Shown here: positions 33,021 to 53,112 of the stretch, one piece after another
Layout: every line of letters starts with the position of its first letter
Position numbering within the stretch: position 1 is the stretch's first letter
NCBI GenBank assembly: GCA_947363565.1
Contig: CANAPP010000011.1
Span: 1-64,000 of the forward strand
Direction: 5' to 3'
DNA length: 64,000 bases
Origin: an uncultured Lachnospiraceae bacterium
GTDB taxonomy: Bacteria; Bacillota; Clostridia; Lachnospirales; Lachnospiraceae
Made by a program: the position numbers and the translations under genes
Notes under the pieces: generated by a model
What the model was told of the DNA's origin: nothing
What the model saw: only the letters and a program-made list of their open reading frames with translations
Databases searched by the model: none

Positions 33021-34061
33021 ATGAAATCAGATGTCAGATTAACAAGTTTAAGTAAGACCGCAGGCTGAGCGGCCAAGATTGGTCCGGAGACCCTTGCCCA
33101 GGTTCTGGGTAAGCTGCCGAAATTCCAGGATGATAATCTGCTCGTTGGAATTGAGACATCCGATGATGCGGCTATATACAAGGTTACCGATGAGATTGCC
33201 ATGATTCAGACTGTCGATTTCTTCACACCGATCGTCGATGATCCTTATATGTTTGGACAGATTGCGGCTGCCAACTCCTTAAGCGATGTGTGGGCTATGG
33301 GAGGCGAACCGGCGGTGGCACTTAACATAGTCGGATTTCCGAATTGTCTGGATCCGGCGATTTTGGGCGACATCCTTGCGGGTGGCGCGGCGAAGGTGAA
33401 AGAAGCAGGTGCGGTACTGGTGGGCGGACACTCTGTACAGGACGATGAGCCGAAGTATGGATTATGTGTGTCTGGTTTTGTACACCCTGATAAGATATTT
33501 AAAAATTATGGCTGCAGGCCGGGAGATATACTCGTTCTGACAAAGCAGATCGGAAGCGGGATTGTCAATACTGCGATAAAAGCGGAGATGGCATCGCCCG
33601 CAGCGATTCGGGAGGCGCAGACGGTTATGGCGTCTCTCAATAAGCTTGGGAAACAGGTCGTTGAGAGATATGATGTATCTGCATGTACGGATATCACGGG
33701 CTTTGGGCTTTTGGGACACTGTGTAGAGATGGCCTCTGCCAGTGAGGTTACCTTTGAGCTTAAGGTAAAGGATATAGCGTATCTGGAAGATGCCGTTGAT
33801 TATGCAAAGATGGGACTTGTCCCGGCAGGAGCATATAAAAACCGCGGATATTCGATGAAGCATGTAGAGACCGGAGGGATTCCAGAGCATTTCCTGGATC
33901 TGCTCTATGATCCGCAGACATCCGGCGGGCTTTTGATCAGTGTATGTCCGGACAATCTTAAAGAGATGATGGCGGACTTTGAGGCTGCGCATATGGATAC
34001 AAAGGTATCGGTTATCGGAAAAGTGGCAGAAAAAAGCGATAAGCTGATCCGGCTGTTTTAA
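33021..34061 (+). CDS. selD: Selenide, water dikinase, selenocysteine-containing
   Basis: 346 residues when the in-frame TGA at 33066-33068 (residue 16) is read as selenocysteine. The N-terminus then reads SLSKTAG-U-AAKIGPETL, matching SelD where this catalytic position is Cys or Sec. ATP-binding segments (VGIETSDDAAIY, FTPIVDDPYMFGQ, VGGHSVQDDEPKYG) follow. A bacterial SECIS-like hairpin lies just after the TGA. It makes selenophosphate from selenide and ATP for tRNA-Sec charging. GGAGG is 8-10 nt before the ATG. Plain gene finders would start it wrongly at 33201. Confidence 0.95.
33071..33098 (+). promoter_or_regulatory. SECIS element of selD
   Basis: The stem GGC(C)AAG pairs with CTTGCC and, after an ATT bulge, GGTC pairs with GACC around the loop CGGA (33085-33088). 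The loop is 17-20 nt downstream of the UGA, within the spacing known for bacterial SECIS elements recognised by SelB. Confidence 0.7.
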
Positions 34062-41901: not shown

Positions 41902-41999
41902 GGGGGTAGATGGGTGACTGGTGTGCCTCCTGGTCTTCAAAACCAGTGTGGGGCGTTAGGAGCGTCCCGGGTGGGTTCGATTCCCACATGCCCTCGCCA
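41902..41999 (+). tRNA. selC: tRNA-Sec (anticodon TCA)
   Basis: 98 nt including encoded CCA. Anticodon arm CTGGT-CTTCAAA-ACCAG gives TCA; there is a long variable arm and a T-arm with GGTTCGATTCC, and the long acceptor stem is consistent with tRNA-Sec. The longest tRNA type, required with selA/selB for UGA recoding in selD and prdB. Lies directly upstream of the prd operon. Confidence 0.95.
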
Positions 42000-45931: not shown

Positions 45932-46657
45932 ATGAGTTTAACGGTTGTTAAAGGTTTACAATCAGAAATATTCGTTCCTATTACTCCGCCGTCTGTATGG
46001 ACTCCTGTAACAAAAGAGCTTAAGGATATGTCTATTGCTCTTGCAACAGCAGCAGGCGTTCACAAGAAAGATCAGGAAAGATTTAATCTTGCCGGTGACT
46101 TCACATGGAGAAAGATAGAGAACACAACTCCGTCAGATGATCTGATGGTATCCCACGGCGGATATGATAACAGTGATGTTAACAAAGACATCAACTGCAT
46201 GTTCCCGATTGACAGAATTCACGAGTTAGCTGCAGAAGGCTTTATCAGAGCTTGCGCTCCAGTACATGCCGGATTCATGGGCGGCGGCGGAAACCAGGAG
46301 AAGTTCAAAGGCGAGACTGGCCCGGCTATCGCTCAGATGTTCAAAGAAGAGGATGTTGACGCAGTTGTCCTCACCGCTGGCTGAGGTACCTGCCACCGCT
46401 CTGCAGTATTGGTGCAGAGAGCGATTGAAGAAGCTGGAATTCCTACAATTATTATTGCAGCTCTTCCGCCGGTTGTTCGTCAGACCGGTACTCCTCGTGC
46501 AGTTGCTCCGTTGGTACCTATGGGTGCTAATGCAGGTGGACCGCACAATGTTGAACAGCAGACACAGATCGTTAAGGCGACTCTTGAGCAGTTGGTAGAA
46601 ATCCAGACACCTGGAAAGATTGTTCCGCTGCCATTCGAGTATGTAGCTAAGATCTAA
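45932..46657 (+). CDS. prdB: D-proline reductase selenoprotein PrdB
   Basis: 241 residues when TGA at 46382-46384 (residue 151) is read as Sec: VLTAG-U-GTCHRSAVLVQ, the redox-active UxxC-type site known for PrdB. Without recoding the frame stops at 150. A SECIS hairpin follows the UGA. Sec attacks D-proline ring opening in complex with the PrdA pyruvoyl subunit. Strong GGAGG; 2 nt after the small gene. A structured element and terminator follow. Confidence 0.96.
46397..46423 (+). promoter_or_regulatory. SECIS element of prdB
   Basis: Stem CTCTGCA (46399-46405) with TGCAGAG (46413-46419), perfect 7 bp, extended by CG/CG, around the loop GTATTGG. The loop is 22-28 nt after UGA, inside the accepted window for bacterial SECIS elements. 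Confidence 0.8.
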
Positions 46658-48261: not shown

Positions 48262-48290
48262 TTGACGCGGCAATTAAGAAGTGGTATATT
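48262..48290 (+). promoter_or_regulatory. Sigma-A promoter of the RNA candidate
   Basis: -35 TTGACG (48262-48267), 17-nt spacer, -10 TATATT (48285-48290), the best consensus match in this neighbourhood. Start near 48297. No coding frame follows on the plus strand for about 2.8 kb. Confidence 0.78.
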
Positions 48291-48296
48291 AATAAC

Positions 48297-48511
48297 GCTT
48301 AATCAATGGTTGTTATTGCAGTTACGCTTCCGCCGATTGTTTCCCCCAAGAACAGTCTTGCGGCAGTGAACTTCAATTAATATATACTTTCCTCTTTACA
48401 GAGGAGCATTCCCCAGCTTTGTATATACAAAACTGCAATGCAACGAGGAAAAACCTCTCAATGACATACCAAAAGGAAGGGCGCGGCATTTCGGAAATGC
48501 TGCGCTCTTTC
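48297..48511 (+). ncRNA. Candidate structured non-coding RNA (about 210 nt), class unassigned
   Basis: Promoter-defined 5' end and terminator-defined 3' end with no supported frame. Closing helix GTTG..ATTGCAGTT (48309-48323) with AACTGCAAT-G-CAAC (48431-48444) encloses hairpin A (GCCG ATTGTT / AACAGT..CGGC, 48332-48364) and hairpin B (TATATAC / GTATATA with tip CCTCT-TTAC-AGAGG, 48381-48427). A GAGG/CCTC hairpin (48445-48457) and the terminator follow; CCTCT at 48454 could instead pair with AGAGG at 48400. Two unpaired TCCCC runs lie in loops. Size fits 6S or raiA RNA, but I cannot confirm either. Confidence 0.5.
48481..48511 (+). terminator. Terminator of the RNA candidate
   Basis: 11-bp stem GCGCGGCATTT / AAATGCTGCGC (one mismatch G-T type) with a CGG loop, followed by TCTTTCT. 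It could also stop readthrough from the prd operon. Confidence 0.8.
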
Positions 48512-48532
48512 TATTCCTGTAAATACAGTATT

Positions 48533-49168
48533 CTATTCATGGATAAACTTTTTCTCCCAGCCCATGCACCATTTGGTGAGGGGACCCAGGACAAGCATTC
48601 CGCCGATTGTTCCCTCGCGGACTTTAAAGGAAAGACCGAACACAAGGGAGAGGGTCAGAGAAGTGATGATAAGAAGCGCGTCACAAGTGATGTGAAGCTT
48701 TGCAAAATCAATCCCGAACTTACTGCTTGCTGTGTAGTAAGTGCTCTCTACAGGAATCTGGACAGCACCTAAGAGATTCAGTCCGCCGATAAAGACTGCC
48801 AGACCCAGATAGGACACGGCCCAGAACAGGACACGCACCAGATAGCTGTGAAGATCGAATAAAAGCACTTGATAATAGACGAAATTCACAACTACGCCGA
48901 AGATAATCGCTACTGGAATCTGTAAAAGACGGATAGGGTGAAAATCCTTTCTAAGCATTAAAATCTGGATCAATATACAGATAAAATTGCCAATGATGCT
49001 GAATGTGCCGGCTTTTAATCCGGTAATCTGCCAGACATTCAGGCTTACCGAATCCCAGCAGGCACAAAGACCGATATCCGCTTTCATGCAAAGCGTCTGG
49101 GATACAGCCATCATGACGACAAAAAATGTAACAAGGATATATTTTTTAATCAATTTTCCAGTATTCAT
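48533..49168 (-). CDS. YczE/DUF6198-like integral membrane protein
   Basis: 211 residues with five or six hydrophobic segments (LVTFFVVMMAVSQTLCMKAD, IIGNFICILIQILML, VAIIFGVVVNFVYYQ). Resembles YczE-family membrane proteins of unknown function. Last gene of a three-gene minus-strand group with the 179-aa protein (16 nt upstream) and a TSUP permease; convergent with the RNA candidate. Confidence 0.7.
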   Translation of the reverse strand: MNTGKLIKKYILVTFFVVMMAVSQTLCMKADIGLCACWDSVSLNVWQITGLKAGTFSIIGNFICILIQILMLRKDFHPIRLLQIPVAIIFGVVVNFVYYQVLLFDLHSYLVRVLFWAVSYLGLAVFIGGLNLLGAVQIPVESTYYTASSKFGIDFAKLHITCDALLIITSLTLSLVFGLSFKVREGTIGGMLVLGPLTKWCMGWEKKFIHE

Positions 49169-49839: not shown

Positions 49840-50730
49840 TTAAGCTATTCCAGCCTTTTTATCTTTCTGCGCAGCGCTGAGCAATGTATATGATGTCCAC
49901 AGAAGAACTACACAAACAAGATTGATCAGCCAGAACATCGGCAAACCTGTGATGAGCTTCCATGCGATAAATACACCGACACATCCGCCGAGTGCATTAC
50001 CAATCGTATGCGGTACATCGTATCTGTGTGTCTTGATGAACTCGATAGAACAAGCCGGCATCAGACATGCACAAGATCCCATGAATACCGGGAAACAAGC
50101 CGTACCGTCAACACCGAGCAGAAGACAGGTAGCCATACATGGTGCGTACAGACCAAAGCCGATATCCATCAAAGCCCCCCATAAAATGTTAAGTCCGGCA
50201 GCTACGATCAGTTTCCAGCCATGTAAACCAGTAGCAGTACCAACAGCTCCGAAAGGACCAACGCCTGTATTCTTGCAAAGCATGATGATTGCAAGAGGAA
50301 TCATAACGAAACCAAGAGCGTATCTGATCTTGTTCCGCGGCCACTTTGTTACGACCGTAGCAAAACCAAAGGAACCTACAGCGGCACATATGTACATAAT
50401 CCACAGGAACATCGGATCACAGTCTACAGAAGCAGTAAAGATAAATGCCTCAAAAATAACCGGGAAAGTATCTCCTACATTCAGTGTACCAGGAATGTCG
50501 ATATCGTCCATCTGGTTGAATAATTTGTACATAAATGTGGATGGCGCATAAGATCCGCAGCCGAGTGTGTCAAGGAAGTTCGCGATAATACCTACCGTAA
50601 ATCCGGCTGCCCACGCTTTGCCTGTTGCCTTCCTGAGATCGTCCATACGATTCTTGGCTACGTCAACGATGAGGCCAAGGCCGGTTCCTGCCACCAGGAC
50701 ACCGAATAAAACTTGAAGTGCTAATAACAT
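49840..50730 (-). CDS. TauE/SafE (TSUP)-like permease
   Basis: 296 residues from ATG after ATTGGAGGAAAAAAT. Eight to nine hydrophobic segments and the duplicated TSUP pattern (LVAGTGLGLIVDVAKNR; AGLNILWGALMDIGFGLYAP). Unusually Cys-rich (NFLDTLGCGSYAP, FMGSCACLMPACS). TSUP proteins export sulfite, sulfonates or organic acids. Near prd genes in this genome, perhaps product export, but specificity is unknown. Confidence 0.72.
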   Translation of the reverse strand: MLLALQVLFGVLVAGTGLGLIVDVAKNRMDDLRKATGKAWAAGFTVGIIANFLDTLGCGSYAPSTFMYKLFNQMDDIDIPGTLNVGDTFPVIFEAFIFTASVDCDPMFLWIMYICAAVGSFGFATVVTKWPRNKIRYALGFVMIPLAIIMLCKNTGVGPFGAVGTATGLHGWKLIVAAGLNILWGALMDIGFGLYAPCMATCLLLGVDGTACFPVFMGSCACLMPACSIEFIKTHRYDVPHTIGNALGGCVGVFIAWKLITGLPMFWLINLVCVVLLWTSYTLLSAAQKDKKAGIA

Positions 50731-50813
50731 ATTTTTTCCTCCAATCCCTAGATATAAAAATACTATAATGTCTTCGAAAACAGCACCCCGATTTGCTATC
50801 TTCGATATATATA

Positions 50814-50843
50814 AATATACCATAAACTAAGAGGAAAGGTCAA
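50814..50843 (-). promoter_or_regulatory. Promoter of the TSUP permease group
   Basis: On the minus strand TTGACC (50843-50838), 18-nt spacer, TATATT (50819-50814). Start near 50807, leaving a leader of about 75 nt. Confidence 0.6.
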
Positions 50844-52982: not shown

Positions 52983-53112
52983 GAAAAAGCTGTGACATGA
53001 TAGCAATGAAGCGTGAGGTTGCTGCCGGACTTCTTGAACAACAGCGGTTTGGGAAGCGAAATGGCAGGTTTTCCGTGGAGCGAATGTCAAGTTAGGAAAC
53101 TGGCGACAAGTC

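Follow-up and report, generated by a model that had tools for sequence, protein, structure and literature searches.

A predicted structured RNA gene of one Lachnospiraceae clade, located next to the prd operon

The window analysed here is a stretch of 64,000 nucleotides from an uncultured Lachnospiraceae bacterium. An interval 3' of its genes prdC-prdA-prdB-prdD-prdE was described in an initial annotation as a promoter-to-terminator unit with no protein, possibly an undescribed structured RNA. Is this an RNA gene, does it belong to a known family, and does it act on its own, through its neighbours or for the prd genes?

Transcription unit and fold

Based on sequence, a sigma-70-type promoter, TTGACG (48262)-17-TATATT (ending at 48290), with a TG ahead of the -10 element, is present as the initial annotation had claimed. 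The pattern TTGACN-16/18-TATA(T/G/C)T is kept upstream in 59 of 61 homologues, and a second count gave 56 of 58 against 0.16 expected from shuffles. The intrinsic terminator, formerly placed at 48481, was located as a hairpin at 48471-48515; a terminator-like hairpin with a T-rich tail lies 3' of the tail motif in 62 of 62 homologues (11.6 in shuffles). It was absent from the list of the scan tool because its U-run is weak in the window species. The following features were assigned, all on the + strand:

48262-48290 (+): sigma-70-type promoter with extended -10 TG
48297-48514 (+): predicted RNA, about 218 nt, its ends inferred from the promoter and terminator positions
48308-48473 (+): conserved core of the RNA, matched by covariance model R1
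48309-48323 (+): closing helix P1, 5' strand, supported by covariation
48325-48368 (+): hairpin P2, both-side changes in 15 of 16 pairs
48343-48349 (+): C-rich loop at the apex of P2 (L1, CCCCCAA), candidate seed
48382-48426 (+): predicted P3 domain, AUAUAC (48382-48387) with GUAUAU (48421-48426), enclosing P3a
about 48391-48404 (+): hairpin P3a inside P3, its folding retained despite sequence changes
48407-48417 (+): C-rich segment L2 (CAUUCCCCAGC), mostly unpaired by unpaired probability, candidate seed
48431-48444 (+): closing helix P1, 3' strand, supported by covariation
48453-48472 (+): invariant 3' tail ACCUCUCAAUGACAUACCAA, found by exact scan in Lachnospiraceae-type genomes only
48471-48515 (+): terminator hairpin and U-rich tail

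In many relatives promoter and core are separated by a 5' extension that varies in length, often includes an additional stem-loop and often holds a terminator-like hairpin; the genus of the window has none. Some long extensions (e.g. L067, L102, L104, L124) contain a long matching stem, and in others the stem is no better than in shuffles, for which reason the predicted stem is graded as likely only.

The sequence from 48262 to 48515 folds at -80.9 kcal/mol (z = -7.7 with the terminator, -5.9 without it), into the closing helix P1, P2 with its C-rich loop, P3 with the second C-rich segment, and the 3' tail. A fold check that used 66 distinct sequences found 94.8% of cells paired and double changes in 21 of 34 pairs. 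Compensated cells numbered 181, compared with 50 for shuffled and 14-26 for slid controls, figures somewhat favoured by a structure alignment that was fitted to the fold. P2 is the best-supported helix and the source of most covariation. P1, whose strands are 89-95% conserved in sequence, has five pairs with double changes. P3 is nearly invariant across homologues and, because it barely varies, is predicted rather than proven. Its inner hairpin P3a has a mean energy of -5.1 kcal/mol versus -0.85 kcal/mol in shuffled sequences.

The closing helix was thus found exactly where the initial annotation had drawn it, with compensatory changes in its support, and both internal hairpins (P2 and P3a) hold in the relatives. 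The proposed three-way layout of a discrete structured non-coding RNA was likewise borne out, the fold being better than that of shuffles and the helix conservation, a check which had been suggested, exceeding both shuffled and slid controls. The suggested alternative pairing of AGAGG (48400) with CCTCT (48454) did not stand: it is possible in the window and is not conserved, the G-rich strand becoming UAGGAG, GUAGGA or GAGAA in relatives while CCUCU is constant. A competing helix, P1b (GGUUGUUAUUG with CAAUGACAUACC), is preferred by the energy minimum; it was discarded, since a C at position 6 in 23 of 65 sequences disrupts its pair with A157 but leaves P1 paired. Computationally, the RNA has its own promoter and terminator and a conserved fold; it is presumably expressed.

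Three conserved stretches are largely single-stranded: CCCCCAA in the loop of P2, CAUUCCCCAGC and the tail. The two TCCCC runs had been noted as unpaired, and the calculated probabilities agree (0.91 for the apical-loop run, 0.66-0.96 for the CCCC of the second). L1 is 94% conserved, against a sequence conservation of only 69-77% in its stem. The first bases of the tail can form a helix P4 with GAGG at 48445-48448, which is missing in 6-8 of the 66 sequences.

Relation to known families and distribution

No family of Rfam 15 covers the RNA at the gathering score or at E up to 10, and a search of its diverged homologues at E up to 1 also returned none. The sau-5971 model matched the terminator hairpin only, weakly (27 bits, cut-off 90). 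The initial annotation had considered 6S RNA and the raiA class by size and had asked for this search. 6S RNA (RF00013) is similar in length and is a rod with one central open bubble, in contrast to the conserved multibranched, three-way fold found here; its covariance model gave no match, and the 6S RNA of the source genome is encoded elsewhere, on contig G000:C23, so that the earlier remark that the layout is not the 6S rod was correct. The raiA motif (ModT, RF03072; PMC11706538) is also structured, about 200 nt long and from Firmicutes, and its model gave no match up to E=10. ModT is known from >2,500 species (PMC11706538), unlike the present RNA, which occurs in one clade; the comparison with ModT, which has two pseudoknots, was by covariance model.

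No matching family was found in Rfam 15 or the open literature searched, although the RNA may be an unnamed entry among the 3,161 structured-RNA candidates reported from human microbiomes (PMC8040213). As far as these sources extend, sequence analysis identifies the RNA as a real, uncatalogued family, in line with the suggestion of an undescribed class. Annotation misses the gene because Rfam lacks the family.

When 299 genomes from the family of the source organism were searched at the DNA level, 27 gave matches, about 22 of them clear homologues, and covariance model R1 found the RNA in 23 of the 299, one copy each; it is also single copy in the source genome. An exact scan of 84,980 species with the 20-nt tail motif gave 63 matching stretches. 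The named genomes among these are Lachnospiraceae genera and the rest carry MAG or higher-rank labels; lineages were spot-checked, and all apparently belong to the Lachnospiraceae. Since the tail was the query, its invariance in the 63 matches follows from the method; the 22 loci aligned from the independent DNA search show no variation in it either, though such a search likewise favours conserved parts. No matches were found among viral contigs and plasmids.

The RNA was found in 22 of the 26 genomes with L4 protein identity >=80%, a rough yardstick for the clade rather than a tree, and in just one other of the 299 genomes. By these counts it marks one Lachnospiraceae clade, with or without prd. 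In RNA-lacking genomes no diverged homologue was detected at the same site, save for a tail remnant in G141. At L129:3448-3481 a clade member that otherwise lacks the RNA retains a remnant of the invariant tail (ACCUCUGAUUGACAUACCAAA), convergent with prdE. In a few clade members the RNA was not detected, and it is probably dispensable in some settings.

Its carriers include the gut genera Dorea, Faecalicatena and others, Coprococcus comes, Extibacter and Claveliimonas among them, making this a well-supported RNA gene in common gut bacteria. Being single copy, probably dispensable at times and provided with defined, mutable loops, it is well suited to tests of RNA regulation in the Lachnospiraceae.

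Proposed modes of action: pairing in trans or binding of protein

UCCC motifs in the loops of RNAIII, RsaE, FsrA and LhrC bind Shine-Dalgarno sequences (PMC9217828, PMC4132741), and for this reason pairing in trans is our best guess for the present RNA. Like these sRNAs, it appears, as judged on sequence, to be an independent gene with a terminator in a low-GC Gram-positive host, with several conserved, unpaired UCCC/CCCC segments in loops or single strands. It differs in being larger and three-way, with a strongly conserved core, and matches none of them in sequence or by model. We put at about even the chance that this is a structured small RNA, transcribed independently, which belongs to one clade and acts in trans. 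The unpaired C-rich segments would base-pair with G-rich ribosome-binding sites in several mRNAs and alter the translation of these, in the manner of the UCCC-motif sRNAs of other Firmicutes. Covariation, the fold z-scores, the conserved promoter and terminator, the single copy, the varying downstream context and an unpaired C-rich loop better conserved than its stem are consistent with such a role.

Searches for targets yielded a sole lead, prdA. In the window, its ribosome-binding site has a 10-nt match to the loop region of the RNA, and GGAGGGA is present at this site in 22 of the 27 relatives that carry the RNA and in 0 of the 11 prdA genes examined from genomes that lack it; relatedness could explain this pattern. 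Complements of 11-12 nt to L1 or the tail, the two segments scanned, do not recur at any shared gene across 22 genomes with the RNA. Complementary matches outside the RNA are about as frequent as those to a reversed-pattern control, and duplexes computed at local gene starts are not consistently more stable than background. Antisense action on the neighbouring, convergent membrane-protein gene was also considered: nucleotides 48328-48344, in a strand of P2, are complementary to its mRNA through a 17-nt near-repeat (94%) at 48598-48614. The near-repeat is partly kept in two close relatives, is absent from a third, and is probably due to chance.

The lack of a recurrent complementary target in the 22 genomes makes protein binding a serious rival. 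A structured RNA working mainly as a scaffold, sponge or enzyme modulator, and not by antisense pairing, is a tentative but real possibility. The 166-nt core is conserved in sequence as well as in fold, beyond what antisense seeds alone need, the nearly invariant P3, the conserved P1 strands and the invariant 20-nt tail being part of it. Against this, no known protein-binding family matches, and the unpaired C-rich loops resemble sRNA seeds. A more specific version supposes a new class of structured RNA that arose in, or is confined to, the clade and whose invariant tail and junction would serve as a platform for a protein or the ribosome and not for antisense regulation; it seems somewhat unlikely.

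Genomic neighbourhood

The RNA adjoins prdE in most loci, and prdA occurs in 19 of 23 RNA genomes versus 12 of 276 others (both/RNA only/PrdA only/neither, 19/4/12/264; p=2e-18). Together with the prdA lead, this could point to a dedicated regulator of proline reductase or selenium metabolism. Within the clade, however, RNA and PrdA show no significant association (18/4/2/2, p=0.22), although a weak link may exist, prd-lacking members being few. Some RNA genomes lack selD, and prd-lacking genomes keep the RNA, mostly beside the S10 operon and often with a methyltransferase gene. Such a dedicated role is therefore improbable; the link to prd, beside which the initial annotation had placed the RNA, is positional, and the neighbourhood is one of shared chromosomal location and clade membership. 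The site of the RNA is likely to be the conserved element, with the prd/selenium cluster sitting next to it.

A cis-acting leader, that is, a riboswitch or attenuator of the downstream gene, is very improbable and largely refuted by gene context. In several prd-lacking genomes an RlmI/RlmL-like methyltransferase gene does follow on the same strand at about 0.1-0.6 kb. The next gene is convergent in most genomes, though, and promoter, RNA and terminator are still kept. No constant same-strand downstream gene was found: it may be convergent prdE, YcxB/YczE or csd-like, or the same-strand methyltransferase or S10 operon, and from this variation it follows that the RNA is not a cis leader.

A short or degraded coding sequence is scarcely credible: the sole conserved AUG (48461) lies in the invariant tail behind GAGG, but the frames that begin with it in relatives range from 4 to 318 codons, two ending MTYQ*, and the covariation is strong. 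The earlier statement that no frame is supported agrees with these counts, and the RNA is, computationally, without coding capacity.

Further features of the neighbourhood were observed. An S10-Clostridia ribosomal leader (52998-53109) lies upstream of rpsJ, 4.5 kb downstream of the RNA. Genes selD (33036-34061) and prdB (45932-46657) each contain an in-frame TGA consistent with selenoproteins, and tRNA-Sec (41902-41995) and a selenium-type LysR gene (37458) are in the same cluster. A TauE/SafE-like transporter gene (49840-50823), below the Pfam cut-off, recurs beside the RNA in many prd loci. A separate fragment at G000:C67:13640-14047 corresponds to just the first ~135 residues of PrdA, and similar pieces occur in other genomes.
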